From Lysobacteraceae bacterium (lineage in GTDB: Bacteria > Pseudomonadota > Gammaproteobacteria > Nitrococcales > AK92): 64,000 nt of DNA. Numbering within the stretch: position 1 is the first letter of the stretch; each line of letters begins with the position of its first letter. Positions 42,092-63,934 of this stretch are shown here, in pieces. The notes beneath the pieces are model-generated. The model saw nothing but the letters and a program-made list of their open reading frames with translations, did not search any database and was not told the origin of the DNA. The stretch is from assembly GCA_012523465.1 (NCBI GenBank), contig JAAYIK010000002.1, forward strand, positions 1 to 64,000, read 5' to 3'. The translations under genes were made by a program, and so were the position numbers.

Positions 42092-43201
42092 CTAGGTGCT
42101 GGAGCCGGTCACGGATTTGGCCGATGGCGGCGGACCGCCCCTGGGCGGCTCGGCCGGCATGGGCTTGACGCCCTGCTCCAGCAGCTGGGCATACCACAGG
42201 TTGTGATGCTGCTTGGCCCAGGCGGTATCGACCCGGCCCGTGGTCATGCCTTCCAGCGCGCCTTCCGTGCCCAGGGTGCCCATGTAGGCATGGCCGAAGA
42301 AGAGCGCGATCCAGAACATGGCCGCCCCGGCGTGGATGACATGGGCCAGTGCCATGGTGGCCCGATCCTGGCCGAAGTTGGGGAAGTCCAGGATGAAGCC
42401 GGTGATGACCACCGCCAGCCCCAGGCCAACCACGCCGATCCAATACCAGAGCTTCTCGCCGCCGTTCAGCTTCTCCGACGGCGCGTGACCGCCGCCGAAA
42501 TAGCCGCCGAAGGTCTTCAGCCACTCCAGGTCCACCCGCTTGGGAATGTTGACTCCCAGCCAGCTGATGATCATCAGGACCAGGGCGACACCGAAGGCCG
42601 GTCCAACAAAGTTATGGACGGTCATGGCCACCTGGGCGTAGGCGGCAAAGCCCCTCGCTCCCAGGACGGGGATCAGCACCGTCCGGCCGAACAGCAGACT
42701 AAGCCCGGTGATGCCCAGCACGATGAAGGTGATGGCTACGAACCAGTGCAGCACCCGCTCGTACATGGTCCAGCGCGGCACGGTCAGGCCCTCGCGGCCA
42801 CCCTCGATCTTGTTGCGACCGAAGACGGCGAAGAACACCGCGATCGCCGCCAGCGACAGCAGCATGATCCAGCCGCCGAAGCGCTTGAGCGGACTCGGCA
42901 CGCCCTCGCGACCGGAGCGAATCTCCCGCCAGATCTCGCCGCTGTTGTTGATCAGCACATTGGTGGTGTACGGTCCCGACTGATCGGTGGTGCCGGCCAC
43001 GCTCTGGCGGGCGTCGCGCCACATGTCGGCGCGCGGGTTGCTATCCCGCGACTCATAGCCGATGACCATCGGTCCGCTCTGAGCCCAGGCCGCCACGTAT
43101 CCCAGCGACGGCAGAATCATCGCCAGCGCAATGATGGCCAGCAGGCTGTACAGCATGGCGCGCCAGCGGCGTTTGGCGACGGTCTTGTCTGAAAAGGTCA
43201 T
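42092..43201 (-). CDS. fdhC: Formate dehydrogenase cytochrome b subunit (gamma)
   Basis: Inner-membrane cytochrome b556 subunit of 369 residues that passes electrons from the periplasmic formate dehydrogenase to the quinone pool. It has an N-terminal membrane segment, a periplasmic loop of about 60 residues (SGPMVIGYESRDSNPRADM), and a C-terminal four-helix diheme cytochrome b domain. That domain contains the heme-ligand-bearing segments RVLHWFVAITFIVLGITGL, VHNFVGPAFGVALVLMII and ALAHVIHAGAAMFWIALFFGHAYMG. The Pro/Gly-rich C-terminus is extended. It is the last gene of the operon, before a strong terminator. Confidence 0.92.
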   Translation of the reverse strand: MTFSDKTVAKRRWRAMLYSLLAIIALAMILPSLGYVAAWAQSGPMVIGYESRDSNPRADMWRDARQSVAGTTDQSGPYTTNVLINNSGEIWREIRSGREGVPSPLKRFGGWIMLLSLAAIAVFFAVFGRNKIEGGREGLTVPRWTMYERVLHWFVAITFIVLGITGLSLLFGRTVLIPVLGARGFAAYAQVAMTVHNFVGPAFGVALVLMIISWLGVNIPKRVDLEWLKTFGGYFGGGHAPSEKLNGGEKLWYWIGVVGLGLAVVITGFILDFPNFGQDRATMALAHVIHAGAAMFWIALFFGHAYMGTLGTEGALEGMTTGRVDTAWAKQHHNLWYAQLLEQGVKPMPAEPPRGGPPPSAKSVTGSST

Positions 43202-43494: not shown

Positions 43495-44085
43495 TCAGAC
43501 GTTCTGACCGTACGCCGCCTGCCACCCCCAGGACTGCGGACGACCGCCACGACGCATGACCCGCTTGCGGTAGATGTTGGCGATGACATCACCGTCACCG
43601 GCCAGCAGGGCCTTGGTGGCGCACATTTCCGCGCAAAGCGGCAGCTTGCCCTCCGCGATGCGGTTGGTGCCGTACTTAGTGAGCTCGGCCTCCGAGTGCG
43701 GCTCCTCCGGCCCGCCAGCGCAGAAGGTGCACTTGTCCATCTTGCCCCGCACGCCGAAGGCCGTCTGCTGCGGATACTGCGGCGCACCGAAGGGGCAGGC
43801 GTAGAAGCAGTAGCCGCAGCCGATGCACAGGTCCTTGTCGTGCAGCACGATGCCATCGGCCGTCTGGTAGAAGCAGTCCACCGGGCAGACCGCCGCGCAG
43901 GGGGCGTCGGAGCAGTGCATGCAGGCGACGGAAATCGCCTTCTCGCCCGGCTGGCCATCGTCCATGACGATGACCCGCCGCCGGTTCACTCCCCAGGGCA
44001 CCTCATGCTCGTTCTTGCAGGCAGTGACGCAGGCGTGACATTCGATGCAGCGCTCTACGTCGCATAGGAATTTCATTCTCGCCAT
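43495..44085 (-). CDS. fdh3B: Formate dehydrogenase iron-sulfur subunit (FDH3 beta type)
   Basis: A 196-residue electron-transfer subunit with four 4Fe-4S clusters. Cys motifs in order are CDVERCIECHACVTACKNEH, CMHCSDAPCAAVCPVD, CIGCGYCFYACPFG and CTFCAGG with a later LCAEMCATKAL. It carries electrons from the catalytic subunit to the cytochrome b. It has no signal peptide, so it is probably exported by the Tat pathway in complex with the catalytic subunit. The gene follows the catalytic subunit by 24 bp. Confidence 0.93.
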   Translation of the reverse strand: MARMKFLCDVERCIECHACVTACKNEHEVPWGVNRRRVIVMDDGQPGEKAISVACMHCSDAPCAAVCPVDCFYQTADGIVLHDKDLCIGCGYCFYACPFGAPQYPQQTAFGVRGKMDKCTFCAGGPEEPHSEAELTKYGTNRIAEGKLPLCAEMCATKALLAGDGDVIANIYRKRVMRRGGRPQSWGWQAAYGQNV

Positions 44086-44109: not shown

Positions 44110-46989
44110 TCAGGCCGGACGCACGCGGCACAGCGTGGTCTTGGTCTCCTGCATCATGGTCACGGCGTCATAGCCGTACGTGGTCGCGGTGTTGGTGGAA
44201 TCACCACGGACGTACGGCGCCGCCCCTTCGGGGTACTTGTGCAGCAGGTCCTCGCCCTGGAAGTGACCGCCGAAGTGGAACGGGGTGAACACGGTGCCGC
44301 GGCCGACGCGATTGGTGACCCAGGCCTTGACCTTGATGCGCCCGCCTTCCGGACCCTCCAGCCAGACCCACTGACCGTCCTTGATGCCGGCATCGTTGGC
44401 GTCCGCCGGGTTGATCTCGACGAACATCTCCTGCTTGAGCTCGGCCAGCCAGGGGTTGGAGCGGGTCTCCTCGCCGCCGCCCTCGAACATGACCAGACGG
44501 CCGCTGGTGTGGATGAGCGGGAACTCCTTGGAGTAGTCGCGGGCCTGCACCGAACGCCAGCGGGTCGGCAAGCGGTAGAACAGCTTGCGGTCCTCGTAGG
44601 TCGGGAAGTCCTTGACCAGGTCGTAGCGCGGCGTGTAGAGCGGCTCGCGGTGCACCGGCACCGGGTCCGGGAAGTTCCACACGAAGGCGCGCGCCTTGGC
44701 GTTGCCGAACGGATGGCAGCCATGCTTCATGGCGACCCGGATGATGCCGCCCGAGCGGTCGGTGGTCCACGACTTGCCCTCGGCCAGCTCCTTCTCCTCC
44801 GGCGTCAGCTCGTCCCACCAGCCCAGCTGCTTGAGCAGCTTGTGGTCGAACTGCGGGTAGCCGCCCTGGATCTCGGCGCCCTTGGACCAGGAGTCCTCCG
44901 CCAGCAGGCTCTCGCCGTTGTACTCGGTGCCGAACGCGGCGCGGAAGTTGCCGCCACCCTCCATGACGTGCTTGCTGGTGTCATAGAGAATGTGCGTGCC
45001 CGGGTGCTTGAGCTCCGGCGTGCCGTAGCAGGGCCAGGGCAGGCCGTAGTACTCGCCGTCCAGCGGACCGCCCTGGGCCTTGAGGCTGACCACGTCGAAG
45101 TGCCCCGCATGCTTCATGTGCGCCTTCAGCCGCTCCGGGCTCTGACCGGTGTAGCCGATCGACCAGGCGCCGCGGTTGATCTCACGCAGCACGCTCTCGG
45201 GCTCAGGCACGTTGTTCACCACCTTGATGTTCTTGAACATCTGGTCGGCGAAGCCGAGCTTCTTGGCGAGCAGGTAGGCGATCTCGCCGTCGGTCTTGTG
45301 CTCGTAGAGCGGGTCGATCACCTTCTCGCGCCACTGCAGGGAGCGGTTGGAGGCGGTCGCCGAACCCGATTGCTCGAACTGCGTCGCCGCCGGCAAGAGG
45401 TAGGTGTTGTCCTTGCGGTCGTGCAGCACGGCGGTGACCGTCGGATACGGGTCGATGACCACCAGCAGGTCCAGCTTCTCCATGGCCCGCTTCATTTCCG
45501 GGCCGCGGGTCTGCGAGTTCGGCGCGTGACCCCACATCATCACGGCGCGGATGTTGTCGCGCTGGGCGATGTTGGCCTTGTCCTCTAGCACGCCGTCGAT
45601 CCAGCGGGAGACGGTGATGCCGGGGCTGAACATCGGCTTGACCTTGCCGCCCTTGCCGTCGTCGTACTCGTTCTGGTCGAAGCGGCCCGCCAGCCAGTCG
45701 AAGTCGACGTCCCAGACCGCCGCCCAGTGGCGCCAGCCGTCTTCCGACAGCGGGTAGTAGCCGGGCAGGTTGTCCGGGTTGGGGCCGACGTCGGTCGCAC
45801 CCTGCACGTTGTCATGGCCACGGAAGATGTTGGCCCCGCCGCCCTCGACGCCGATGTTACCCAGCGCCAGCTGCAGGCAGTTGTAGGCGCGGACGTAGTT
45901 GCTGCCGATGGTGTGCTGGGTGCCGCCCATGCACCAGACGAAGGTGCCCGGCCGGTTCTCGGCCATGATCTTGGCGACTTCGTAGAGGCCCTCGCGCGGC
46001 ACGCCGGTAACTTGCTCGACCCGCTCCGGGGTCCACTTGGCGACTTCCTCGCGGACCTTGTCGAAGCCGAACACCCGCTTGCGGAGGTACTCCTTGTCCT
46101 CCCAGCCGTTCTCCAGCACGTGCCAGAGAATGCCCCAGATCAGCGCCACGTCAGTGCCGGAACGGAACCGCACGTAGACGTCGGAGTGGGCCGCGGTGCG
46201 GGTGAAGCGCGGGTCCATGACCACCAGTTTGGCGCCGTTTTCCTTGGCGCGCAGGATCATCTGCATCGCCACCGGATGCGCCTCGGCGGCGTTGGAGCCG
46301 CACATCACGATGCACTTGGACTTGTTGATATCGTTGTAGGAGTTGGTCTGCGCCCCATAACCCCAGGTATTGGCCACGCCAGCCACGGTGGTGGAGTGGC
46401 AGATGCGGGCCTGGTGGTCGCAGTTGTTGGAGCCCCAGAAGGCTGCGAACTTGCGCTGCAGGTAGGCGCCCTCATTGCTAGCCTTGGACGAGCCGGCGAA
46501 CCAGAGTGCATCCGGACCCGATTCTTCGCGGATCTTCAGCAGCTTGTCACCGATCTCCTCGATGGCCTGCTCCCAGCTGATGCGCTGCCAGCGGCCGTTG
46601 ACTAGCTTCATCGGATACTTGGTGCGGCGCGTGCTGTGGCCGTGGTTGCGCAGCGAGGCGCCCTTGGCGCAGTGAGCGCCCAGGTTGATGGGGCTGTCGA
46701 AAGCCGGCTCCTGACCGATCCAGACGCCGTTCTGCACTTCGGCGTAGGTGCTGCAGCCCACCGAGCAGTGGGTGCAAACGGTCTTGACGCGCTTGATTTC
46801 GGCCTTCGGATCGATGCTGCGAGCCGCCTTGGCCTTCTTGACCATGGTGGTCGGCAGGGCACCGGCGACCGCAGCAGCACCGACGGCAAGCCCGGTGCCT
46901 TGCAAGAAGGCGCGGCGGCCAATGGCCCGACCCAATATGCCGGGGCGGCTGCTGGTCGCGGTGGTCCCGCTCTTCTTGATTAATTTCAT
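44110..46989 (-). CDS. fdhA: Formate dehydrogenase catalytic subunit, Cys type, Tat-exported
   Basis: Molybdopterin-guanine-dinucleotide (Mo or W) formate dehydrogenase alpha subunit, 959 residues. A twin-arginine signal lies at residues 25-30 (RRAFLQ). The 4Fe-4S ligands are C72, C75, C79 and C107 (CTHCSVGCS, later HCAKG). The metal ligand is cysteine C197 in ARICHSTTVAG, not selenocysteine; no in-frame TGA occurs. The following His of the active site is present. Cofactor-binding segments include GSNAAEAHPVAM and MMWGHAPNSQTRGPEM, and a C-terminal molydopterin-binding domain begins near residue 790. The operon supplies its Fe-S and cytochrome subunits and a TorD-type chaperone. Confidence 0.95.
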   Translation of the reverse strand: MKLIKKSGTTATSSRPGILGRAIGRRAFLQGTGLAVGAAAVAGALPTTMVKKAKAARSIDPKAEIKRVKTVCTHCSVGCSTYAEVQNGVWIGQEPAFDSPINLGAHCAKGASLRNHGHSTRRTKYPMKLVNGRWQRISWEQAIEEIGDKLLKIREESGPDALWFAGSSKASNEGAYLQRKFAAFWGSNNCDHQARICHSTTVAGVANTWGYGAQTNSYNDINKSKCIVMCGSNAAEAHPVAMQMILRAKENGAKLVVMDPRFTRTAAHSDVYVRFRSGTDVALIWGILWHVLENGWEDKEYLRKRVFGFDKVREEVAKWTPERVEQVTGVPREGLYEVAKIMAENRPGTFVWCMGGTQHTIGSNYVRAYNCLQLALGNIGVEGGGANIFRGHDNVQGATDVGPNPDNLPGYYPLSEDGWRHWAAVWDVDFDWLAGRFDQNEYDDGKGGKVKPMFSPGITVSRWIDGVLEDKANIAQRDNIRAVMMWGHAPNSQTRGPEMKRAMEKLDLLVVIDPYPTVTAVLHDRKDNTYLLPAATQFEQSGSATASNRSLQWREKVIDPLYEHKTDGEIAYLLAKKLGFADQMFKNIKVVNNVPEPESVLREINRGAWSIGYTGQSPERLKAHMKHAGHFDVVSLKAQGGPLDGEYYGLPWPCYGTPELKHPGTHILYDTSKHVMEGGGNFRAAFGTEYNGESLLAEDSWSKGAEIQGGYPQFDHKLLKQLGWWDELTPEEKELAEGKSWTTDRSGGIIRVAMKHGCHPFGNAKARAFVWNFPDPVPVHREPLYTPRYDLVKDFPTYEDRKLFYRLPTRWRSVQARDYSKEFPLIHTSGRLVMFEGGGEETRSNPWLAELKQEMFVEINPADANDAGIKDGQWVWLEGPEGGRIKVKAWVTNRVGRGTVFTPFHFGGHFQGEDLLHKYPEGAAPYVRGDSTNTATTYGYDAVTMMQETKTTLCRVRPA

Positions 46990-47308: not shown

Positions 47309-47926
47309 TCACCCCAGCATCGAGTAGTAGTGCTGCTCGAGCCGGAGGAATTCCTCGCCGAGCACGCCGACGGCACGGTAGAAGCTCGCCGACGGCGCCT
47401 CCTGCAGATCCTTGAATAAGCGTCCGAGCCAAGGCTCGATGTGACGCTGAAAAAACTCCTGCTGGCGCGGGAAGTCGTATTCCGGATCGGCCAGCACCAG
47501 CGCCATGATCTGGCAGACCATCCCGGCGTGGTCTTCCGGCTCGCTCACGCCCTCCTCGCGCTCCACGCCTAGCTGCTTGAGCTCCTGGCGCAGCTCGACC
47601 AGCGGCCGCTCCATCAGCGAGCCGGTGAGATACCAGGACGCATAGGGCGTGACCTCGCCGCCGCCAAGCCCGATAAACACGTCCTGATATTCCGCCGCCA
47701 GCGCCTCTGGCTGAGCCCGCTGCGCCGCCATGCGCAGCGTGAGCCAGGCTTCGCCGATGGCGTCCTTGACCCCGTCGGCCGGGTCCTCGATCCGGCTCAG
47801 CATGTCCAGCAGCTCCCGGCTCGGCGCAGCCGCCAACAGGGTGCCCAGCAGGTTCCAGACTCCTGCCCGCAGGCGGTCCTGCTCTTCTGCAGTCACCACC
47901 GGTTCCATCTCGATCGACGCCGTCAT
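47309..47926 (-). CDS. TorD-family molybdoenzyme chaperone
   Basis: A 205-residue all-helical cytoplasmic chaperone that binds the Tat signal of a molybdoenzyme and protects it during cofactor loading. TorD/DmsD signatures are YQDVFIGLGGGEVTPYASWYLTGSL and EPEDHAGMVCQIMALV. Its place directly upstream of the Tat protein and fdhA makes FdhA the likely client. It overlaps the polyferredoxin gene by 4 bp (ATGA). Confidence 0.88.
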   Translation of the reverse strand: MTASIEMEPVVTAEEQDRLRAGVWNLLGTLLAAAPSRELLDMLSRIEDPADGVKDAIGEAWLTLRMAAQRAQPEALAAEYQDVFIGLGGGEVTPYASWYLTGSLMERPLVELRQELKQLGVEREEGVSEPEDHAGMVCQIMALVLADPEYDFPRQQEFFQRHIEPWLGRLFKDLQEAPSASFYRAVGVLGEEFLRLEQHYYSMLG

Positions 47927-51254: not shown

Positions 51255-51269
51255 AGGCACGAAACTTGT
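51255..51269 (+). promoter_or_regulatory. Possible sigma-54-type promoter of moaA
   Basis: AGGCACGAAACTTGT keeps the GGCACG block and TTG with correct spacing but has A for T before GG and T for C in the -12 GC. The predicted start, near 51280, is about 49 bases before the moaA ATG. Confidence 0.35.
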
Positions 51270-51328
51270 ATGAGCGAGACGGTATCCGGAGCGGACAGCG
51301 ACGGCTTGGGTCTACCGAAGAGGAGCAC

Positions 51329-52339
51329 ATGGACAGCCACAGCCATGAGCAGCCGCGTCTGATCGATCGCTTTGGCAGGCACGTCACCTATGTGCGCCTG
51401 TCAGTGACGGACCGTTGCGACTTTCGCTGCGTCTACTGCATGAGCGAGGAGATGTCCTTCCTACCGCGGGCGCAGCTTCTGACGCTCGAGGAAATGGCCC
51501 TGCTCGGCCGTGCCTTCACCGAACTCGGGGTCACCAAGATTCGGATCACCGGCGGCGAGCCGCTGGTGCGCAAGAACGTCATCTGGCTGTTCCAAGCGCT
51601 GGGCTCCCTGCCCGGCCTCAAGGAGCTCACCCTCACCACCAACGGCTCGCAGCTGCAGCGCTACGCCACGGCGCTACGCCAGGCCGGCGTGCGCCGCATC
51701 AACGTCAGCCTGGACAGCCTCGATCCGGACCGCTTTCGCGCCATCACCCGGGTCGGCAGCCTCGACAAGGTGCTGGCCGGCATCGCCGCCGCCCAGGCAG
51801 CCGGCTTCGACAAGATCAAGATCAATACGGTTGCGATGAAGAATCGCAACGACGACGAAATCCTCGACCTCGTGCAGTTCGTGGTGGAACGCGGCATGGA
51901 CATCAGCTTCATCGAGGAGATGCCGCTGGGTCTCATCACCGAGCACGACCGAGCCGAAACCTACATGTCCAGCGACGAGGTGCGCGCGCGCATCGCCAGC
52001 CGCTTCGAGCTGGTTCCCAGCAACGTCAGCACCGGCGGCCCTGCGCGTTACTGGCTGATTCCTGGCACCGCTACCAAAGTCGGCTTCATCTCGCCCCACA
52101 GCCACAACTTCTGTGATGCCTGCAACCGGGTGCGGGTGACCACCGAAGGCCGGCTGCTGCTCTGCCTGGGCCAGGAACATTCCATGGATCTGAAGCGGGT
52201 GCTGCGGGCGCACCCGGGCGACCTGGAGCGGCTCAAGCAGGCCATCGTCGCCGCCATGGAACTCAAGCCCAAAGGGCATGACTTCAAGCTGAACGAAAAA
52301 CCGATCCTGTTCCGTCACATGAGTGTCACCGGCGGCTGA
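51329..52339 (+). CDS. moaA: GTP 3',8-cyclase MoaA
   Basis: Radical-SAM enzyme for the first step of molybdenum-cofactor synthesis, 336 residues. The N-terminal cluster is C30, C34, C37 (CDFRCVYC). Further signatures are [31 protein letters not shown] and the second-cluster motif [21 protein letters not shown]. The chain ends in the conserved Gly-Gly (VTGG). The ATG at 51329 follows GAGGAG; the frame is open for 21 more codons upstream. It starts the molybdenum-cofactor block, opposite the formate dehydrogenase operon. Confidence 0.96.
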
Positions 52340-53517: not shown

Positions 53518-53598
53518 GCTCTCGCTCCTTAGTCAGGCCCGTTGCCGGGCGCGATGGATGGTAGAGTAAGCGCATCAGCGCCTTGCGAAGCACACATC

Positions 53599-54876
53599 AT
53601 GACCGAAAAAAAGCCAGCAATACAGCAGCCTGCCAGCTGCAGCGACCATGACTCCAGCGCGCTGCCCCTGGACATCGCCTGGCAGCGCATCGTCACCGAC
53701 ATCCGGCCGCTCCAGGGCGTGGAACGCGTCAGCATGCGCCAGGCCCTGGGCCGCGTCCTGGCCGAGCCGATCCGCTCACCCCTGAACGTCCCGGCCCACG
53801 ACAACTCCGCCATGGACGGCTACGCGCTCCGCGCCGCCGACCTGCCGGAGCACGGCGAGCGGGCGTTCCGCCTGGTGGGGGCGGCCTTCGCCGGCCACCC
53901 GTTCGCGGGTCAGGTCGGGCCCGGCGAGTGCGTGCAAATCATGACCGGCGCGCCTATCCCGGCCGGCGCCGACACCGTGGTTATCCAGGAGCGGGTGCGC
54001 CGCGACGGCGACAGCGTGCAGGTCCCCGGTGGCGAGCAGCCAGGCCAGAACGTGCGCCGTGCGGGCGAGGACCTGGCCGAAGGGCAGGTGGTGCTGGAAG
54101 CCGGCCAGCGCATCGGACCGGCCGAGCTGGGCCTGCTGGGCTCGCTCGGGCTGGTGGAAGTGGCTGTCTGGCGGCGGCTGCGAGTGGCCTTTTTCTCCAC
54201 CGGCGACGAGCTGCGCAGTGCCGGCAGCCCGCTGGCCGCGGGCCAGGTCTACGACAGCAACCGCTACACCCTCTACGCCATGCTGCAGCGACTGGGCGTC
54301 GAGCTGACTGACATGGGGGTGATTGCCGACGATCCCGCCGCCCTGGAGCGGGCCTTCACCGACGCCGCCAGTTTCGCCGATGCCATCATCAGCTCGGGCG
54401 GCGTCTCGGTGGGCGAGGCCGACCACGTCAAGCAAATCCTCGCCCGCCTGGGCCGGGTCAACTTTTGGCAAATCGCCATCCGTCCGGGCCGGCCGCTGGC
54501 GTTCGGCACCATTGGCCGCGCCTACTTCTTCGGCATGCCCGGCAACCCGGTCTCGGTGGTGGCGACCTGGTATCAGTTCGTGCAGCCGGCCCTGCGCCGC
54601 CTGATGGGCCAGCGCCTGGAGCCGCCGCTCAGCTTCCGCGTGCGCACCGTGTCCGATCTGCGCAAGCGCCCGGGCCGGACCGAGATCCAGCGCGGGATAC
54701 TCGAGCGCGACGCCAGCGGCGAGCTGGTGGTGCGCAGCACCGGCCCGCAGGGCTCCGGCATCCTGCGCTCCGTCAGCATGGCTAACTGCTTCATCGTGCT
54801 GCCGCACGACCGCGGTCCGGTGAAAGCGGGCGAGATGGTCGACGTGCAGCCCTTCGAGGGCATCATGGGCTGGTAA
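53599..54876 (+). CDS. moeA: Molybdopterin molybdenumtransferase MoeA
   Basis: A 425-residue enzyme that inserts molybdate into adenylated molybdopterin. MoeA signatures are VPAHDNSAMDGYALRA, VQIMTGAPIPAGADTVVIQE, VRRAGEDLAEG, FFSTGDELRSAG, YDSNRYTLYAML, ISSGGVSVGEADHVKQIL, IRPGRPLAFG and FFGMPGNPVSVVATWYQF, followed by the C-terminal domain IV. The ATG at 53599 begins a non-conserved N-terminal tail of about 20 residues before the family start. Confidence 0.95.
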   Translation: MTEKKPAIQQPASCSDHDSSALPLDIAWQRIVTDIRPLQGVERVSMRQALGRVLAEPIRSPLNVPAHDNSAMDGYALRAADLPEHGERAFRLVGAAFAGHPFAGQVGPGECVQIMTGAPIPAGADTVVIQERVRRDGDSVQVPGGEQPGQNVRRAGEDLAEGQVVLEAGQRIGPAELGLLGSLGLVEVAVWRRLRVAFFSTGDELRSAGSPLAAGQVYDSNRYTLYAMLQRLGVELTDMGVIADDPAALERAFTDAASFADAIISSGGVSVGEADHVKQILARLGRVNFWQIAIRPGRPLAFGTIGRAYFFGMPGNPVSVVATWYQFVQPALRRLMGQRLEPPLSFRVRTVSDLRKRPGRTEIQRGILERDASGELVVRSTGPQGSGILRSVSMANCFIVLPHDRGPVKAGEMVDVQPFEGIMGW

Positions 54877-54885
54877 GGCCGCCAG

Positions 54886-56328
54886 CTAGCCGCGGCAGAA
54901 TGCCTCGTAGTCGACATAGCCCGGGAACGCCTTGCCGTCGCCGCAGTAGGCGCAGTCCGGATCACGGGCGAAGCGCAGCTCCTGGAAGCGGCCAGCGAGC
55001 GCGTCGTAGTGCAGCAGCCGGCCGACCAGGGGATCGCCCAGGCCGAGCAGTAGCTTGACCGTTTCCACCGCCTGCAGCAGGCCGATGACGCCGGGCATCA
55101 CGCCCAGCACGCCTGCCTCGGCGCAGGACGGCGCCAACTCCGGCGGCGGCGGCGCGGGGAACAGGCAGCGATAGCACGGCCCCGGGGCGCCGGGCCGGCC
55201 CGGCCAGAACACGCTGACCTGGCCGTCGAAGCGGAACACCGCGCCGTGGACATTGGGCAAGCGGTGCTTGATGCAAGCATCGTTGATCAAATAGCGGGCA
55301 GCGAAGTTGTCGGTGCCGTCCACCACCACCTGGTAGCCGGCGAAGATCTCGTCGACATTGCTGCTGTCCAGCCGCTCCTGATGCAGCACGACCTGCACGT
55401 CCGGATTCAGGGCCTGGATCGCCTCCCGCGCCGATTCCACCTTGGGCCGACCTATCCTTCCCTCGGTGTGGATTACCTGGCGCTGCAGGTTGCTGCGGTC
55501 GACCACGTCGTGGTCGACGATGCCGATGGTGCCGACCCCCGCCGCCGCCAGATACAGCGCCGCCGGCGACCCTAGCCCGCCGGCGCCCACCAGCAGCACC
55601 CGGCTCTCCAGCAGCTTGAGCTGGCCGCTCACGCCGACTTCCGGCATCAGCAGATGACGGGAGTAGCGCTCGCGGGCTGCGGCATCCAGCATGCGCGGCA
55701 GCTCGAACGGCAGCCCCTCGTTCTTCCAGCGGTTGAAGCCGCCGGCCACCGACCATACCCGCTTGTAGCCCAGCCGCATCAGCTCCTCGGCGGCGAACAA
55801 GGAACGGGCGCCGTGGCTGCACATCACCAACAGCGGCCGCTCCAGATCCGGCACCCGATCCTCGATCTGCAGCTCCAGAAAGCTGCGGCTCAGCCGCAAC
55901 GCCTCCTTCGGGCTGCCAGCAGCGATTTCCTCCTGCTCGCGCACGTCGATCAGGACAGCGCCTTCGGCCTGCATCGCGAACGCCTGGCGCGGCTCCACCT
56001 CCGGGACCTGCTCGCGCAGCGCCGCCAGGCGGCGCTCGCGCCCCCGCGGCGACCCGCCCGCCACCGAAGGGATGATAGCGATGACGTCGCCGCTCTTGAC
56101 CGGCGTCTCCAGCCCCTGCCGGCTGTTGATGTCGTCGCTGCCGACGAAGACGTTGACGTAGGGGCGCACCCGCCCTTCCGGGGTAAAGATCCGCCGCCCC
56201 AGCCCGTCGTGCCGTTCGGCCAGCGTCTGCAGCGCTTCGCCTACGGTCGCCGCGACCACTTCCACCTCGCTGGCGCCGTCCGCGTATGGTCGCAGCGGCG
56301 TCGGGATCCGCACGATCACTGAACTCAC
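54886..56328 (-). CDS. MoaD-rhodanese-MoeB fusion protein
   Basis: A 480-residue three-domain protein. Residues 1-92 are a MoaD/ThiS-like ubiquitin fold (VIVRIPTPLRPYADGASEVEV, RPYVNVFVGSDDI, VAIIPSVAGG as VIAIIPSVAGG) ending in the Gly91-Gly92 that free MoaD carries at its C-terminus. About 105-208 is a rhodanese with active-site loop CSHGARS (C170). About 211-470 is a MoeB-type adenylating enzyme: YSRHLLMPEVGVSGQLKL, the ATP site GAGGLGSP, RSNLQRQV, zinc cysteines C385/C388 and C459/C462 and SCAEAG. It could adenylate its own carrier domain and transfer sulfur to it. The GTG start overlaps the stop of the upstream JAMM peptidase gene by 4 bp; that peptidase could expose Gly-Gly. Confidence 0.88.
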   Translation of the reverse strand: MSSVIVRIPTPLRPYADGASEVEVVAATVGEALQTLAERHDGLGRRIFTPEGRVRPYVNVFVGSDDINSRQGLETPVKSGDVIAIIPSVAGGSPRGRERRLAALREQVPEVEPRQAFAMQAEGAVLIDVREQEEIAAGSPKEALRLSRSFLELQIEDRVPDLERPLLVMCSHGARSLFAAEELMRLGYKRVWSVAGGFNRWKNEGLPFELPRMLDAAARERYSRHLLMPEVGVSGQLKLLESRVLLVGAGGLGSPAALYLAAAGVGTIGIVDHDVVDRSNLQRQVIHTEGRIGRPKVESAREAIQALNPDVQVVLHQERLDSSNVDEIFAGYQVVVDGTDNFAARYLINDACIKHRLPNVHGAVFRFDGQVSVFWPGRPGAPGPCYRCLFPAPPPPELAPSCAEAGVLGVMPGVIGLLQAVETVKLLLGLGDPLVGRLLHYDALAGRFQELRFARDPDCAYCGDGKAFPGYVDYEAFCRG

Positions 56329-56726
56329 GGGGAAATCACCTCTTCCAGAAATTCGCCGTCCCGCAGCCGCCAGGAACGCAGTCCCGTCACGCCAGCGGCG
56401 CTGGTGCCGACGATCACGTAGGACCAGCCCGGCCAAGCATCGGCCAGGTCCTGGGCCGAAGGCACCGGCTCGGCATCCGGGTGGCTGTGCCAGATGCCGA
56501 GCACCCGCAGCCCGGCGGCATCGGCGCGCTGCTCCGCCCGCATGTACTCGATCGGATCGAGGCGGTAGTGCCGACGCCGGTCCGCTGCCGCGTTGGCCAG
56601 CGCCCAGACCTGCTCCACCCTAGCACCGACGCCCAGCAGCAGGCCGCAGCCTTCCTCGGGATAGGCCGCTTGCGCCAGCTCCAGCAGCCGGGCTCTGGCG
56701 GCCGCGGCAATCGTCAGCTCACTCAT
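56325..56726 (-). CDS. JAMM/JAB1 metallopeptidase (M67 family)
   Basis: A 133-residue compact zinc peptidase with a full JAMM motif: E25 (in YPEEGCGLLLG), H80-x-H82-P83 and S90-x-x-D93 (HSHPDAEPVPSAQD). Bacterial relatives trim residues after the Gly-Gly of MoaD/ThiS-like sulfur carriers (for example QbsD in thioquinolobactin synthesis and Mec+ acting on CysO). The gene precedes the MoaD-rhodanese-MoeB fusion gene and overlaps it by GTGA, so that fusion is the obvious candidate substrate; this is inference. The ATG at 56726 gives the usual family length; a longer frame upstream is not conserved. Confidence 0.87.
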   Translation of the reverse strand: MSELTIAAAARARLLELAQAAYPEEGCGLLLGVGARVEQVWALANAAADRRRHYRLDPIEYMRAEQRADAAGLRVLGIWHSHPDAEPVPSAQDLADAWPGWSYVIVGTSAAGVTGLRSWRLRDGEFLEEVISP

Positions 56727-56859
56727 GCCCAGCAGTGTAGCGCGATTTCGGAACCGGCTGCGAGAAGGTCGCACCTGCACCGCGCCGGAGTGTAATAGAA
56801 TCCTTGCCATTCTGGCCGCAAGGGCCGCCCAATCCGAACCTCAATCATCAGGAGCCAAC

Positions 56860-57972
56860 ATGACTGACAACTGCCACGGCCGCGTGGTTTTGCTGGTCGG
56901 CACCGAAAAGGGGCTGTTCCGCCTGGTCAGCGACCACCGCCGCGAGCAATGGAGCATCGACGGACCGCTGATCGAGGGACACGAGATCCTGCACGCCTGG
57001 ATAGACCCGCGCCGGCCACAAACGGCCTATGCCGCGGTGCGCCACCTGATCTGGGGCGCCCACGTTTATCGCAGCGAGGATGCCGGCAAGACCTGGGAGT
57101 CCCTCAGCGCCGCCCCCCAACACGAGGTCGGGAAGCACGAGGAAAGCCTGCGTGCGATCTGGTATCTGGCGCCAGGACTCGCCAGCGAACCGGACACGAT
57201 TTATGCCGGCATTGATCCCGCTGGCCTGTTCGTCAGCCGCGACCGCGGCGAGAGCTGGGAGCCCATGGCGGGCCTTAACGACCACCCGACCCGCACCACC
57301 TGGGAGCCGGCCAAAGGCGGCTTCTCCATCCATTCCATCCACCAGTGCGAACGGCTGCCGCAGCGGATGTACGCCGCCGTGTCGGCCGGCGGCGCCTACC
57401 GCAGTGATGACGGCGGCGCCAGCTGGTATCCCATCAACCGCAACGTCCGGGCCGAGAACAAGCCGCAGCGGTTCGTCGAAAGCGGCCACAACATCCACCG
57501 CCTGGTGGTCCACCCCAGGCAGCCGGATCGGCTCTACCGCCAGTGTTACAACGGCATGTACCGTAGCGACGACGGCGGCCTGAACTGGGTGGAAATCTCC
57601 GCCGGGCTGCCCAGCGACTTCGGCTATGCCATCGTCACCGAAGCGGCCGACCCCGACGTCGTCTATGTCCTGCCGATCGCCAGCAACCACATGCGGACCA
57701 TGCCGGAGGGGCGCATGCGGGTTTTCCGCTCCGCCGACGGCGGCAACAGCTGGCAGGCCCTGACCGCAGGCTTGCCGCAGTCCCATGCCTACGTGAGCGT
57801 GCTGCGCGAGGCCATGGATGTGGACGACCTGCCCTCCTGCGGGGTGTACTTCGGCACCACCAGCGGCCACCTGTTCGCCAGCCGCGACTACGGCCAGCAT
57901 TGGGATTGCCTTGCCGCCTTCCTGCCCCGCATTCTCAGCGTCAAGGCCGCGGTGATCCCTGACCATGAGTGA
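56860..57972 (+). CDS. BNR/Asp-box beta-propeller-like protein
   Basis: A 370-residue protein with repeated sialidase-type Asp boxes: YRSEDAGKTWESL, VSRDRGESWEPM, YRSDDGGASWYPI, YRSDDGGLNWVEI and FRSADGGNSWQAL, and a degenerate one near the end (ASRDYGQHWDCL). These indicate a beta-propeller, like the sortilin/sialidase or YCF48 class. There is no signal peptide, so it is probably cytoplasmic and not a secreted sialidase. AGGAG lies 6 bases before the ATG. It overlaps yqeC by 8 bp, suggesting a linked role with molybdoenzyme maturation. Confidence 0.78.
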   Translation: MTDNCHGRVVLLVGTEKGLFRLVSDHRREQWSIDGPLIEGHEILHAWIDPRRPQTAYAAVRHLIWGAHVYRSEDAGKTWESLSAAPQHEVGKHEESLRAIWYLAPGLASEPDTIYAGIDPAGLFVSRDRGESWEPMAGLNDHPTRTTWEPAKGGFSIHSIHQCERLPQRMYAAVSAGGAYRSDDGGASWYPINRNVRAENKPQRFVESGHNIHRLVVHPRQPDRLYRQCYNGMYRSDDGGLNWVEISAGLPSDFGYAIVTEAADPDVVYVLPIASNHMRTMPEGRMRVFRSADGGNSWQALTAGLPQSHAYVSVLREAMDVDDLPSCGVYFGTTSGHLFASRDYGQHWDCLAAFLPRILSVKAAVIPDHE

Positions 57973-58708
57973 CGTCCTGCTGCAAGCCCTCGGGGCCGAG
58001 TCCGGCATCCTCTGCGCCGTCGGCGCCGGCGGCAAGAAGACAGTGCTGTACCGGCTGTTCGCAGCCCATCCCGGGCGGGTCGGCCTGACCGCAACCGCCT
58101 TCATGACCGTGTTCCCCGACGAGCTGGCGGCCGCACGGCTGGTGGCCCCCGAGGCGGAACTGGAGGCACGGGTGCCAGCCCTGCCGGCACGGCGCATCGC
58201 CTATGCGCAACCGTCCGAGAAGCCGGGCCGTATGGCCGGCCTGGTGCCGGAGCGGGTGGCCACCATCCACGCCCGGGGCGGCTTCGACCTGACCCTGGTC
58301 AAGGCCGACGGCGCCCGCATGCGCCGCATCAAATGCCCGGCCGAGCACGAGCCCAGCCTGCCGCCGAGCACCAGTACGACCCTCCTGATCCTGTCCGCCC
58401 TGGCGCTGGGCAAGCCGCTCAGCGACAAGATCGCGCATCGTCCGGAGCGGGTGGCCGCCGTGACCGGGCGCGCCCTAGGCGAGCCCATCACGCCGGCCGA
58501 CCTGGCCGCCATTTACAGCCACCCCCAGGGCCTGCTGCAGGGGACCGCGGGCAGCCGGGTGATCCCAGTGCTGAACATGGTGGACACGGCGGAGCTGGAG
58601 CAGGCCGGGCGCGAGGTCGCCCGCCTGACCCTGGCAGCCAGCCCGCGCTTTGACCGCTTCGTCCTGCCCAGCCTGCGCCGCCCCGGCTTCCTGGTGGCGG
58701 TGCTGTAG
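57965..58708 (+). CDS. yqeC: YqeC-type molybdoenzyme accessory protein
   Basis: A 247-residue putative nucleotide-binding protein of the YqeC family, linked in other genomes to selenium-dependent molybdenum hydroxylases. The P-loop-like motif is GAGGKKT (residues 20-26). The family signature VKADGARMRRIKCPAEHEPSLP is present, followed by TLLILSALALGKPLSDKIAHRPERVAAVTG. No molybdenum hydroxylase or selenium gene is in the window, so its client is unclear; mobA lies about 4.6 kb downstream on the opposite strand. It overlaps the beta-propeller gene and ends at an intrinsic terminator. Confidence 0.8.
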   Translation: MSDVLLQALGAESGILCAVGAGGKKTVLYRLFAAHPGRVGLTATAFMTVFPDELAAARLVAPEAELEARVPALPARRIAYAQPSEKPGRMAGLVPERVATIHARGGFDLTLVKADGARMRRIKCPAEHEPSLPPSTSTTLLILSALALGKPLSDKIAHRPERVAAVTGRALGEPITPADLAAIYSHPQGLLQGTAGSRVIPVLNMVDTAELEQAGREVARLTLAASPRFDRFVLPSLRRPGFLVAVL

Positions 58709-58779: not shown

Positions 58780-58837
58780 CTCATGACAATGGCAGGCGTC
58801 ACCGGATTCGCCACCTGCCATGAGGGAATGTCATGAG
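58780..58837 (+). promoter_or_regulatory. Leader hairpin bracketing the phoX ribosome-binding site and start
   Basis: CTCATGACA (58780-58788) pairs perfectly with TGTCATGAG (58829-58837), which contains the phoX start codon. ATGGCAGG (58789-58796) pairs with CCTGCCAT (58814-58821). The seven unpaired bases GAGGGAA between the two right arms are the ribosome-binding site. If transcribed, this would hold the start codon in a stem and the ribosome site in a bulge. As DNA it is also a large inverted repeat that a regulator could bind. Confidence 0.5.
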
Positions 58838-60873: not shown

Positions 60874-63282
60874 TCAATGCAGCGTGGTGGGATTCTTTTC
60901 CATCGCTTCCAGATGGCGCCGCAGCTTTTGCAGCCGCGGGGACAGCGGACTCATCCTGCCTTCCGCCCGGGCCACGGCATCGCGCAGCAGCTGCAGCGCC
61001 TCGGGGCGACGTCCGCTGTCGCGCAGCAGGACGCTGAGCCGGATCACGCTGTTGATGTGCAGCATGCTGTCCTCCCCCATCACCCGCGCGGTCTGCTCGC
61101 AGGCCTGCCGCAACAGCGGCTCGGCCAGCTCGAACTGGTCTTGCTCGGCATACAGGGCAGCCAACTCGGCGCGGGTCATGATGGCATGAGGGTGCTCCTC
61201 GCCCAGTAGCTTGCTCCAGGTGGCCAGATTGCGTCGATAAAGCTGCTCGGCCTCCGCGTATTCGCCCTTTTCCCGCAGCAGGTCGGCCAGATTGTTGATG
61301 CTGGTGGCCGTGGCCGGATGCTCGACGCCGACCAGCTTCTCCCAGACCGCGATGGCGCGCCGGTACATGGGCTCGGCCTGCGCGCTGTCGCCCATGGCAT
61401 CCAGCACTCCGGCCAGGTTGTGTAGAGTCGATGCGGTATCGACGTGTTCCTCGCCGTAGACTTCCTGGCGAATGGCCAGGGCGCGGGCGAACAGCTGTTC
61501 AGCCGTGCGGTACTGCTCGCGGACATCCAGCAAGGTCGCCAGATTGTGCAGGCTGGCCGCCGTCGCCGGATGCGCTGGACCGAAGGCGGTCTCCACCACG
61601 CCCAGCGCACGCTGATAAAGCGTTTCCGCCTGCTCGTGGTCATGCCCGGCATAGAGCAGACCGGCCAGGCTGTCCAGGCAAGCGGCAGTGGTCGGATGGC
61701 CGTTGCCGCAATGCCGCTCAGCCAGAGCCAGCGCGCGCTCCAGCAGCGGTCGGGCGCCGGCGAAATCCTGCGCCGCCTTGCGCACCGCCGCCAGGTTGGC
61801 GAGATGGGGGATCAGATCGACGTGCCGCTCCCCCAGCGCCTGCTCGCGCAGCCTGAGCGTGGTCTGGTAGAGCACCGCGGCCTGGTCAAGCTCGCCGCGC
61901 TTCTCCAGCAGCATCGCCAGCTGGTGACGGACGGCATGGGAGTCGGGGTGATCGTCGCCCAGCAGCTGCTCCCGCGCCGCCAGGGCCCGGCGTAGCAGCG
62001 GCTCGGCCTCGGCGAGCCGCTCGACGTCGTTCAGCCAAGCGCCGCAAGCGGCATCCAGGGCAGCCTGCGCCATCGGTGGCAGCTCGCCCGCGCGCTCCCT
62101 CGCCCGCGCGAACAGCGGCTCCAGATTCGGCTGCTCCAGCAAATCCCGCAGGGCCAGGCTCAGCTCCACGACCAGGGCGCCGAAATCGGGCGGCGACAGC
62201 CGCGCACGCCAGTCGTCCAGCCGGCTGCAATAGAACTCGATCAGGCCTTCGCCCAGGCCCCAGGCCTGCCAGCAGCCCAGCAAATCGTCGCGGCGGCCTG
62301 GCTGCAGCAGCGCCTGCAGGACCCGGCAGTCGCCCAGCCAGTCCGCCAGTGCCTGCCAGTGCGCGGCTGCCGGCAGCAGCCACGGCAAGGCATCCAGCGC
62401 TTGCGGCGTGGCCGCATACAGGCGGGACAGCTCCAGGTACACAGCCTGCTGCTCGACGCCTTCCCGCAGCAGCTGGCGCCGTACCAAATCCTGGCTGCGG
62501 GCGCCGGCCAGCGCCCAGCCATTGGCCCCCTGGTAAACCAGGCCGCGCCGAGCCAGCCCCGCCAGCGCCGCCGTCTCCAGGCCAGCCTGCCGCAGCAGCA
62601 GCTCCGGCACGCCGCGCCGCGCGCCCCACAGCAAGCGCAGCAAGGCCGACTCCTCGGCGGCCAGATCCCTCAGCTCGGCCACATCCAGCGGCAACGGGGC
62701 GAGCGCGAGCGTCTCGTGCTGCCAGCCGCGGCGACGCAGCACCTCGCAGGCGGCGCCGGGCGCCACGCTGACGATGAGCCGCGCCCCGGGCGGCAGGTAG
62801 CGCGGCAGCCAGGCCATGTCCTCGTCGGCCGCGCCGCCCTCCAGACTCTCCAGACCGGTGAGCACGAGCACGACCTTGCCCGTGGCCGCGGCGCGTGCCA
62901 GCCAGTTCGGCAGAACCTCGATCCGGCCCTCCAAGGTCACCGGCAGCGCTTCCCGCAGCCCGCGCCCCTGGCGCAGCCCGCTCAGCAGCCGAAACAGCAG
63001 ATGGTTCAGCTGCCGGCTTTCCCGGGTGCAGCCGAGGTGATGCACTAGCACCAGGGCGTCGGCATGGGCGACGGCATAGCGGCGCGCCCAGTGATCCAGC
63101 GCTGCCGCCGCAGCCCCCGGCGCGGCGGCTTCCAACACCAGCGGCAGCCCGCGCCGCGCGCAATGCTGAGTGAGGCGCTGGCGCAGCCCCTTGGCCGCTG
63201 CGCTCATCTCGCCCAGCCACCGACCAAAGCTCTGTTGATCGGCCTGGGCCAGGGCGGTCAAATCCGGCTGTTCATTCATCAT
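60874..63282 (-). CDS. STAND/NACHT-like TPR protein with erased nucleotide-binding motifs
   Basis: An 802-residue cytoplasmic protein. The N-terminal ~190 residues follow the pattern of NACHT/STAND ATPases fused to TPRs (LDHWARRYAVAHADALVLVHHLG, EVLPNWLARAAATGKVVLVLTGLESLEG, WLPRYLPPGARLIVSV). The Walker A site, which in relatives reads GESGSGKS, is here AAAPGAAA (about residues 52-59), and the Walker B Asp is replaced (LTGLESLE). A central helical region (about 200-440) links to about eight 42-residue kinesin-light-chain-type TPRs (for example HPATAASLHNLATLLDVREQYRTAEQLFARAL). It is probably a non-ATP-binding scaffold. Its start (ATGATG) overlaps the mobA stop by 11 bp. Confidence 0.82.
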   Translation of the reverse strand: MMNEQPDLTALAQADQQSFGRWLGEMSAAAKGLRQRLTQHCARRGLPLVLEAAAPGAAAAALDHWARRYAVAHADALVLVHHLGCTRESRQLNHLLFRLLSGLRQGRGLREALPVTLEGRIEVLPNWLARAAATGKVVLVLTGLESLEGGAADEDMAWLPRYLPPGARLIVSVAPGAACEVLRRRGWQHETLALAPLPLDVAELRDLAAEESALLRLLWGARRGVPELLLRQAGLETAALAGLARRGLVYQGANGWALAGARSQDLVRRQLLREGVEQQAVYLELSRLYAATPQALDALPWLLPAAAHWQALADWLGDCRVLQALLQPGRRDDLLGCWQAWGLGEGLIEFYCSRLDDWRARLSPPDFGALVVELSLALRDLLEQPNLEPLFARARERAGELPPMAQAALDAACGAWLNDVERLAEAEPLLRRALAAREQLLGDDHPDSHAVRHQLAMLLEKRGELDQAAVLYQTTLRLREQALGERHVDLIPHLANLAAVRKAAQDFAGARPLLERALALAERHCGNGHPTTAACLDSLAGLLYAGHDHEQAETLYQRALGVVETAFGPAHPATAASLHNLATLLDVREQYRTAEQLFARALAIRQEVYGEEHVDTASTLHNLAGVLDAMGDSAQAEPMYRRAIAVWEKLVGVEHPATATSINNLADLLREKGEYAEAEQLYRRNLATWSKLLGEEHPHAIMTRAELAALYAEQDQFELAEPLLRQACEQTARVMGEDSMLHINSVIRLSVLLRDSGRRPEALQLLRDAVARAEGRMSPLSPRLQKLRRHLEAMEKNPTTLH

Positions 63283-63934
63283 CGCGGCTTCCTGCAGCCG
63301 CCGGGCCGCTGCCTTGCAGGCGAGCCTCCAGGGCCTCGCGGTCGGCGGGGGTGTTGACATTGAGAAAGGCCTCCGGCACGTCGGCGAAATCGGCCAGCGC
63401 CATCCGATGCTGCGCGTACCAGCGGTCGATCTTGCGCTCGCCGGCCGCCAGAAAGGCTTCCAGGCTGGGTAGCAGGCGCCGCGGCAGCAGCGCGAAGACC
63501 GGCTGCAGCCGCCCTGCTCCTTCGGCCACGGCCAGCTCAGCCCGTTCCCGCGCCAGTGCCTGGCAGAGCCGCTGCACCAGGTCGGGCGGCACCAACGGCG
63601 AGTCGCAGGGCACGGTGACGATCCATTCCGTCCCGCTGGCTGCCAGGCCGCTGGCCATGCCGGCCAGCGGGCCGGCGTAATCGCCCACGCGGTCGGCGAC
63701 GACGGGAACCCCGTAGCGGCGGTAGCAGTCGTGGCTCCGGTTGGCATTGATGATGAGTGCCGCCGTCTGCGGCCGCAGGCGCTCGATGATGTGCTCGACC
63801 ATGGGCCGGCCGGCCAACGGCACCAGCCCCTTGTCGATGCCCCCCATGCGGCTGGCCCGCCCTCCGGCAAGCACGACGCCGGTCACCGCATCCTGGCTGA
63901 CTTGGCTCACTGGCTGTTCTCCTCTGACAGACAT
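63272..63934 (-). CDS. mobA: Molybdenum cofactor guanylyltransferase MobA
   Basis: A 220-residue nucleotidyltransferase that attaches GMP to molybdopterin, giving the bis-MGD cofactor required by formate dehydrogenase. The nucleotide-binding motif is VLAGGRASRMGGIDKGLVPLAGRPM. Also present are VVADRVGDYAGPLAGMASGL, VTVPCDSPLVPPDLV and the C-terminal FLNVNTPAD. GGAG lies 6 bases before the ATG-proximal spacer. It is translationally coupled to the downstream TPR protein gene through an 11-bp overlap. Confidence 0.93.
   Translation of the reverse strand: MSVRGEQPVSQVSQDAVTGVVLAGGRASRMGGIDKGLVPLAGRPMVEHIIERLRPQTAALIINANRSHDCYRRYGVPVVADRVGDYAGPLAGMASGLAASGTEWIVTVPCDSPLVPPDLVQRLCQALARERAELAVAEGAGRLQPVFALLPRRLLPSLEAFLAAGERKIDRWYAQHRMALADFADVPEAFLNVNTPADREALEARLQGSGPAAAGSRDDE

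Follow-up and report, generated by a model that had tools for sequence, protein, structure and literature searches.

The stretch of DNA analyzed here, referred to throughout as the window, comprises 64,000 nucleotides of a Lysobacteraceae bacterium genome (GenBank assembly GCA_012523465.1, contig JAAYIK010000002.1, positions 1 to 64,000) and contains, between 42.1 and 63.9 kb, a cluster of formate dehydrogenase (FDH) and molybdenum cofactor (Moco) genes. Within this cluster lies a gene (60874..63282 with the stop codon included, minus strand; delineated from its open frame and its orthologues) for an 802-amino-acid protein that joins what appears to be a nucleotide-dead STAND-type core to an array of tetratricopeptide repeats (TPRs), hereafter the STAND-TPR gene. 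All 802 codons (60877-63282) are open up to the stop at 60874-60876, in agreement with a preliminary description of this DNA in which the frame was noted to be otherwise intact, and a search of the host genome returned this single match, with no second copy found. Directly upstream on the same strand is mobA, encoding molybdenum cofactor guanylyltransferase (63272..63934, minus strand; TIGR02665 over the cut-off), the last bases of which overlap the first bases of the STAND-TPR gene by 11 bases, and an AGGAAG stretch 5 bases ahead of the STAND-TPR ATG is, in our reading, the putative ribosome site. In all 11 loci checked from f2, a family of the same order that includes Aquisalimonas, Methylonatrum kenyense and Ectothiorhodospiraceae, the mobA stop falls between 56 bases past and 42 bases before the chosen STAND-TPR start, and the start codon is unsure in one locus, L066. 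By inspection, the protein lacks a signal peptide.

An alignment of 28 orthologues locates the eroded P-loop at residues 52-59, AAAPGAAA (63106..63129, minus strand), with alanine at both the Walker A lysine position (58) and the serine/threonine position (59), and the Walker B strand at residues 137-142, VVLVLT (62857..62874, minus strand), with the aspartate replaced by Thr142, both as originally read. This set omits L022, L045, L046, L069 and L072-L074, which are NACHT or generic TPR proteins and were not counted as orthologues, as well as the partial L061, L081 and other later Wenzhouxiangella-family loci. The GK[S/T] signature is present at the Walker A site in none of the 28 rows, the lysine position being occupied by K in 3, by R in 8 and by other residues in 17. 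Neither Lys nor Arg is found there in any of the 15 rows formed by the window protein and f2; the P-loop is shortened in 11 of the 14 f2 proteins and changed at full length in 3, and the window protein has kept its length with the residues turned to alanines. The six rows from f4, the family of Spiribacter, all read GxxxSGR[T/S/A] (five from the genus Spiribacter itself, g8, and one from g16), and the six Wenzhouxiangella-family rows comprise GKA (three), GRA (two) and one with nothing recognizable; in L081, outside the aligned set, Lys is likewise absent from the site.

An intact P-loop relocated to another position in homologues, a weakness that the preliminary description had itself raised, was not seen: GxxxxGK[S/T] does not occur anywhere in the 28 rows, GK[S/T] on its own is present in the TPR part of six Wenzhouxiangella rows, and no AAA or NACHT model was recorded in the window protein. 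Conservation of the two losses among homologues is uneven, that of Walker A extending to 28 of 28 rows but the Walker B Asp being kept in 15 of 28 overall and in 10 of the 15 window and f2 rows; in Wenzhouxiangella, an Asp sits one residue past the Walker B position. Among the window and f2 rows, the P-loop stretch has a mean majority fraction of 0.38, compared with 0.62 for the rest of residues 44-194; of all 8-residue windows in the domain, just 3% are conserved as poorly, which, judging from the alignment, looks like the opposite of a working STAND. The corresponding fractions are 0.77 against 0.75 in f4 and 0.69 against 0.71 in Wenzhouxiangella, with 43% of the 8-residue windows in the Spiribacter family, 45% in Wenzhouxiangella and 24% over all 28 rows scoring as low as the P-loop. 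The Walker A loss is a family trait rather than a symptom of decay.

The AlphaFold2 model of the full-length protein, built from 28 rows, has a pLDDT of 93.5 and a pTM of 0.90, and agrees with that of residues 1-400 alone, built from 15 rows (pLDDT 92.6, pTM 0.90). The N-terminal part was folded and searched separately since the fold lists for the full-length model contain mostly TPR proteins, with PH0952 at rank 37 of Foldseek. In the models, the place that Walker A has in P-loop NTPases is taken by a strand (48-52) that leads through a short loop to a helix (57-72), residues 137-142 form the Walker B strand, and residues 8-353 adopt the STAND fold. The N-terminal model matches MalT (8bob; Z 19.4 over 322 residues, rmsd 4.5), the archaeal TPR-STAND PH0952 (6mfv; Z 18.9, 326 residues, rmsd 5.9) and Apaf-1 (3sfz; Z 16.2, 330 residues), with alignments that span 322-339 residues of the 400-residue model, and matches at lower scores Avs3 (15.3, 180 residues) and Cdc6/Orc1 proteins (at most 14.1, mostly 150-170 residues). 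The N-terminal residues are accordingly modelled as a STAND-type core that consists of a degenerate nucleotide-binding domain (NBD; residues ~30-195, 62698..63195; AlphaFold models with MalT, PH0952 and Apaf-1 fold matches), a winged-helix-like domain placed from secondary structure and fold matches (residues ~205-272, 62467..62670) and an arm-like helical region (residues ~275-400, 62083..62460), which is evident in the models and is reached by the PH0952 and Apaf-1 matches up to residue 400, all on the minus strand. The structural similarity of residues 40-190 to a P-loop domain, on which the preliminary description hinged, is thereby present. Of the STAND hallmarks, the NBD fold, the winged helix and the arm are retained, and Walker A, the Walker B Asp and the lid are missing.

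The label NACHT-like, also given at the outset, is borne out by the models, the fold search, profile-profile alignment of the window and f2 proteins with the Spiribacter-family orthologues (99.9%) and weak AAA hits of orthologues, but not by the window sequence alone. Neither NACHT nor AAA is among the Pfam models listed for the N-terminal 400 residues of the window protein, under HMMER filters that drop most matches above about 0.1, and the N-terminal sequence gave no meaningful match among solved structures. Among eight orthologue N-termini tested, three (L018, L020, L021) gave weak AAA hits and five gave none, the best being AAA_22 at 8e-6 and 9e-6, slightly below the curated cut-off.

A second lesion, on which the preliminary description did not remark, is the loss of the lid. 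According to the models, the NBD ends in a strand (188-192) that runs almost straight into the winged helix (209-272), with no helix of at least 4 residues between 192 and 209, and the spacer between NBD and winged helix measures 24-43 residues in 27 of the 28 orthologues (31 in the window protein; not measurable in the 28th row, L066). In L022, a GKS-bearing homologue with a Pfam NACHT hit of 2e-7, 104 residues separate the corresponding landmarks, including an NPLFL stretch, and in PH0952 the helical domain occupies that place (residues 263-316, from the parts of PMC6468293 available to us). The comparison draws on L022 as the one full GKS comparator, on L069, which is partial, and on the domain boundaries published for PH0952; when further GKS-bearing relatives of L022 were sought, 274 genomes of the class yielded one weak match with stops, and plasmids yielded none. 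The helical (lid) domain, which serves as the nucleotide clamp, is apparently absent even where K or R remains at the Walker A site, and therefore the switch had probably been lost already in the common ancestor. Judged by its sequence, the STAND-type domain is incapable of the nucleotide-driven switching of other STANDs.

These features also bear on the idea that the old pocket still binds a nucleotide or a pterin nucleotide, such as molybdopterin guanine dinucleotide (MGD), via other residues and serves as a Moco carrier. Mo-bisMGD carries GMP moieties, which together with the coupling of the gene to mobA and the preserved fold around the pocket lends this unorthodox site some appeal; nevertheless, the lid is gone, and in the window and f2 proteins the P-loop falls within the least conserved 3% of windows in the domain, hardly what a conserved ligand there would lead one to expect, so that we consider such a site quite improbable.

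The remainder of the protein is a kinesin light chain (KLC)-type TPR array (residues ~403-775, 60958..62076, minus strand), recognized from Pfam and KLC structures and, by dN/dS, the most conserved part. Pfam assigns TPR_12 in 8 stretches, with a score of 279 bits compared with a cut-off of 30.1, and TPR_10 in 9, consistent with the initial count of about eight such repeats, and the TPR part matches kinesin light chains with Z up to 25.4 (KLC1), so that both repeats and fold place the protein among KLC-type TPR proteins. The model for the FxSxx-COOH system TPR protein, NF040586, scores 151.5 bits, below its curated 300 and with its best stretch in the TPR region, and the protein was not assigned to that family. 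Past the TPRs, the model and the orthologue C-termini indicate a terminal helix (residues 782-796, 60895..60939, minus strand) with a LSPRLQKLRRHLE-type motif that is conserved in most orthologues. Taken as modelled, the protein combines the KLC-type TPRs with an inactive STAND ATPase made up of a degenerate NBD, a winged helix and an arm, without a lid; by sequence and model, the orthologues examined have lost the parts that would hold the nucleotide and have kept the fold and the TPRs.

Orthologues were found in all 14 genomes of f2 and in part of f4, and, outside the order, in Wenzhouxiangella and Alkalisalibacterium; within its own family, the gene is present in the host genome and in none of three other genomes, one of them 78% complete. 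In the tree of the TPR part, in which two rows elsewhere have long branches, the window protein groups with f2 (support 92/92, not starred). A family-profile search of 274 genomes of the class recovered the window gene and one NACHT-type match, and the family looks narrow, with few genomes sampled per order. The plasmid collection yielded no tblastn match to the N-terminal 400 residues and no record covering 80% of the full protein (alignments start at residue 332 or later among the 10 of 71 records listed), and on this search a plasmid-borne family was ruled out.

The possibility that a former STAND is simply losing its function, its frame open by chance or the loss recent, has in its favor that both Walker motifs are gone in the window copy, that the pairs used to gauge selection exclude that copy for want of a close relative in the set, and that copies in one Wenzhouxiangella metagenome-assembled genome, G331, are fragmented, one with an in-frame stop. 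The lesion, however, recurs in 28 orthologues over two orders, the C-terminal motif is mostly conserved, the gene is present in 14 of 14 f2 genomes, and in eight close orthologue pairs NG86 dN/dS is 0.16-0.37 for residues 30-220, 0.16-0.37 for residues 221-419 and 0.03-0.14 for the TPRs, rough values given that the pairs were chosen, none includes the window protein and synonymous divergence is high in several. The eight pairs appear to be under purifying selection, the dead domain included, and the motifs unrelated to nucleotide binding (E122, L124, P125, W127, L128 and R130; W158 and P164) are invariant or nearly so over the 28 rows. Ongoing decay is thus largely contradicted by selection in relatives and strikes us as very unlikely, and a simple pseudogene was ruled out by the conserved frames, the selection in relatives and the mostly retained C-terminal motif. 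This outcome upholds the initial argument against simple decay, with the loss in all 28 orthologues, the fold retained and dN/dS at 0.16-0.37 in the dead domain. The fragmented G331 copies are L082 and L084.

The cluster that surrounds the STAND-TPR gene holds, in order, fdhC, fdhB, fdhA, a TAT-target-like protein (under the cut-off), a TorD-like protein, a polyferredoxin, moaA, an HTH-PBP protein, moeA, a MoaD-rhodanese-MoeB fusion, a BNR protein, yqeC, phoX, the STAND-TPR gene and mobA. The FDH genes lie on the minus strand: fdhC, the cytochrome b subunit (42092..43201; TIGR01583 at 162 bits, cut-off of 115.85 passed), fdhB, the FDH3 beta subunit (43495..44085; NF038355 at 340.9 bits, cut-off of 240 passed), and fdhA, the catalytic subunit (44110..46989; TIGR01591 at 485.4 bits, cut-off of 666.25 not reached, with molybdopterin oxidoreductase domains), followed on the same strand by the TorD/DmsD-like chaperone gene (47309..47926; NF003442 at 59.7 bits, cut-off of 132 not reached). 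On the plus strand are moaA (51266..52339; TIGR02666 over the cut-off), moeA (53542..54876; NF007960 over the cut-off), and two neighbors that are conserved by synteny, the BNR/Vps10-type propeller gene (56725..57972) and yqeC (57965..58708; TIGR03172 over the cut-off). A further conserved neighbor on the minus strand (54886..56436) encodes a 516-amino-acid fusion of a ThiS/MoaD-like domain, a rhodanese and a MoeB/ThiF domain in series, with long matches in some related loci (L089, L090, L096). The BNR/Vps10-type gene, which has an overlap with yqeC in the window, is again close to yqeC in loci of f2, f4 and Alkalisalibacterium, and phoX (58833-60788, plus strand), located between yqeC and the STAND-TPR gene, has no match in the 7 f2 stretches scanned.

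Much of this arrangement is conserved across two orders. In 7 of 7 f2 stretches of 20 kb, mobA, the STAND-TPR gene, yqeC, BNR, moeB, moeA, the polyferredoxin gene, torD and fdhA recur; these stretches were picked for the gene and fdhA being on one contig (7 of 14 f2 genomes) and are no measure of linkage frequency. In three f4 loci, the gene is beside moaE and moaA, with mobA, moeA, yqeC and BNR further away and an LplA-like gene after it; in four Wenzhouxiangella-family loci, it adjoins an LplA-like gene and fdh genes; and in the Alkalisalibacterium locus, it is between mobA and yqeC. The LplA/BPL-type ligase gene (PF16917) follows directly in both the Spiribacter-family and the Wenzhouxiangella-family loci (for example, L067 12286-12948 and L058 12102-12926, both plus strand). 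Two observations concern fdhA itself: in all 7 f4 genomes with FDH3, and in G003, its matches split near residue 735, which suggests an insertion or a divergent stretch, and in G327 (C42:65353-65733) there is a short fdhA fragment with one in-frame TGA, either selenocysteine or a remnant. A sigma-54 activator homologue adjoins mobA in the host genome and in the 7 f2 stretches scanned (L097 18483-19790, plus strand, past the window end) and is a candidate regulator of the cluster.

The main rival to a role in enzyme assembly would be a signal sensor for fdh expression: the TPRs would bind formate, a cofactor intermediate or an unloaded apo-subunit, as in MalT or PH0952, and the dead nucleotide-binding module would pass the signal by protein contact, for example, to the sigma-54 activator, thereby controlling FDH expression and not assembly. 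That MalT is the best fold match fits this scheme, as does the activator homologue beside mobA in the host genome and in all 7 f2 stretches, but Pfam detected no DNA-binding output domain in the protein, and scans of 3 Spiribacter-family and 4 Wenzhouxiangella-family loci did not reveal the activator in the vicinity of the gene. We know of no route by which a STAND switches without nucleotide, and overall regard a sensor as unlikely.

The neighborhood likewise counts against a defense-type inactive STAND, that is, a protein that would sense nucleic acid or phage in the manner of the iSTANDs from MoxR-vWA and BREX systems and has come to lie in a metabolic cluster by chance. The protein does share eroded Walker motifs and a lost C-terminal helical bundle with iSTANDs, as these are characterized in the portions of PMC12839542 and PMC8195603 at hand. 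The neighbors that could be identified, though, belong to Moco and FDH pathways and include no MoxR, vWA or BREX gene; the purifying selection seen in the eight pairs differs from the rapid evolution ascribed to defense iSTANDs in the same portions; and PADLOC detected in the whole protein a generic TPR model (3e-5) and PDC-S39 at an E-value of 0.13, and nothing in the N-terminal part, so that the gene was rejected as a defense gene. A defensive role accordingly seems highly improbable.

The distribution of the gene closely follows that of FDH3. Among 54 genomes of the order, 21 have both, one (G040, 82% complete) has the STAND-TPR gene only, two have FDH3 only and 30 have neither (Fisher P 1e-11, which ignores kinship). 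Here, G014 was placed with the genomes that have neither, its N-terminal profile match (8e-22) being the GKS-bearing NACHT homologue L022 and FDH3 being absent, and G052 was moved to those with both, on a partial copy at a contig end detected by a full-length search made in 15 of the 54 genomes. The match is exact in the 14 genomes of Spiribacter (both in 6, neither in 8), where yqeC is present in 12 and does not discriminate; a general Moco gene was rejected as an explanation, since yqeC occurs in many genomes without FDH3 and without the STAND-TPR gene. The gene and fdhA share a contig in 16 of the 21 genomes with both and are on different contigs in the other five. In the Wenzhouxiangella family, the counts for 43 genomes are 7 with both, one with the STAND-TPR gene only (G329), none with FDH3 only and 35 with neither (P 2.5e-7), G331 with its fragmented copies, one broken, being counted as having the gene. 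Linkage to and co-occurrence with a molybdoenzyme are the marks of an FDH/Moco maturation factor, and the membership of the gene in the cluster suggests a role of that kind.

We therefore favor, with a probability of roughly 0.5, a nucleotide-dead, iSTAND-like TPR scaffold that was recruited as an accessory of FDH3 maturation. Under this proposal, the STAND-TPR protein would stay in the cytoplasm, where it would be made together with MobA; being unable to switch between ATP and ADP, it would offer a constant docking platform, the TPRs of which might gather FdhA, with the TorD-like chaperone, and MobA and MoeA, the last Moco-making enzymes, such that bis-MGD could be loaded into FdhA ahead of Tat export. 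There is precedent in that TorD contacts MobA as a platform and the late Moco enzymes form a multiprotein complex, according to the available parts of a review (PMC10609526), and a docking platform in Moco loading is a role that would suit a TPR array whose gene is coupled to mobA and accompanies FDH3. The non-switching scaffold with a kept TPR surface put forward in the preliminary description stands as far as the motif loss in 28 of 28 orthologues and the conserved TPRs are concerned; the scaffold role itself is what we infer.

Several points weigh against a maturation scaffold. Weak phosphate binding might still be permitted by the R that substitutes for K in Spiribacter-family rows and by the GKA of three Wenzhouxiangella rows. 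The Moco genes of the query set were not found beside the gene in the four Wenzhouxiangella-family loci, and the window cluster already appears to encode its own TorD-like chaperone. In the genomes G003 (91% complete) and G012 (99% complete), FDH3 is present and the STAND-TPR gene absent; therefore, FDH3 can do without it and the gene is not needed everywhere. Without the judgements on G014 and G052, the order-level count becomes 20 with both, 2 with the gene only, 3 with FDH3 only and 29 with neither, and the Fisher P values take no account of shared ancestry.

As a more far-reaching and tentative history, which we rate somewhat below even odds, a STAND signaling ATPase may have become a permanently locked TPR platform that loads Moco into FDH3, either in an ancestor of two or more gammaproteobacterial orders or with transfer between them, its P-loop decaying differently in each lineage after the loss of the lid and of GK[S/T], and this in metabolism, not in defense or transcription. 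If a family that bears these two lesions indeed tracks formate dehydrogenase, ordinary metabolism would offer a case of a dead switch retained for its shape; the graded series from GKA through GRS/GRT and a shortened loop to all-alanine lets one ask what a P-loop fold does without nucleotide; and the STAND-TPR gene is a candidate accessory gene of FDH3, enzymes of a kind that are of interest for CO2 reduction.

There are precedents for TPR-STANDs, for inactive STANDs and for FDH chaperones; in the open PMC literature, we found no description of an inactive STAND-TPR or NACHT protein tied to formate dehydrogenase or Moco, and the published inactive STANDs that we found sit in defense systems, to judge from the accessible sections of PMC7159879, PMC8195603 and PMC12839542. 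The closest structural relatives, PH0952 (PDB 6MFV) and MalT (8BOB), share the order of NBD, winged helix and arm followed by TPR-type repeats (Z 18.9 and 19.4), whereas the window protein is without the P-loop Lys or Ser/Thr, the Walker B Asp and the lid, and no output domain was found in it. The NPHP3-like NACHT-TPR protein L022, from a genome of the genus Spiribacter (G014), has in common with it the KLC-type TPRs, the LPxWLAR and WLP/WFP motifs and the LWAARGG start of the winged helix but, unlike it, retains GESGSGKS, the Walker B Asp and an NPLFL-type lid region. Like the window protein, iSTAND, iSTAND2 and BrxB/BrxF of BREX combine eroded Walker motifs in a P-loop fold with a missing or reduced C-terminal helical bundle, a likeness that rests on published descriptions (the portions seen of PMC8195603 and PMC12839542) and not on profile comparison with iSTAND sequences; linkage to MoxR-vWA or BREX is lacking, and the window protein differs further in its winged helix, arm and KLC-type TPRs, its tie to formate dehydrogenase and the purifying selection in the pairs tested. 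The N-terminal domain of BcsE offers a parallel in a predicted ATPase fold without a working Walker A and with a role in oligomerization (available part of PMC7439463), but it is RecA/KaiC-like rather than STAND and belongs to cellulose secretion. The TorD/NarJ-type maturation proteins have the same proposed job, a platform between MobA or Moco and the molybdoenzyme (PMC10609526, in the part available). The STAND-TPR fold is a different one, and the cluster has a separate TorD-like gene; TorD is all-helical, without a P-loop domain.

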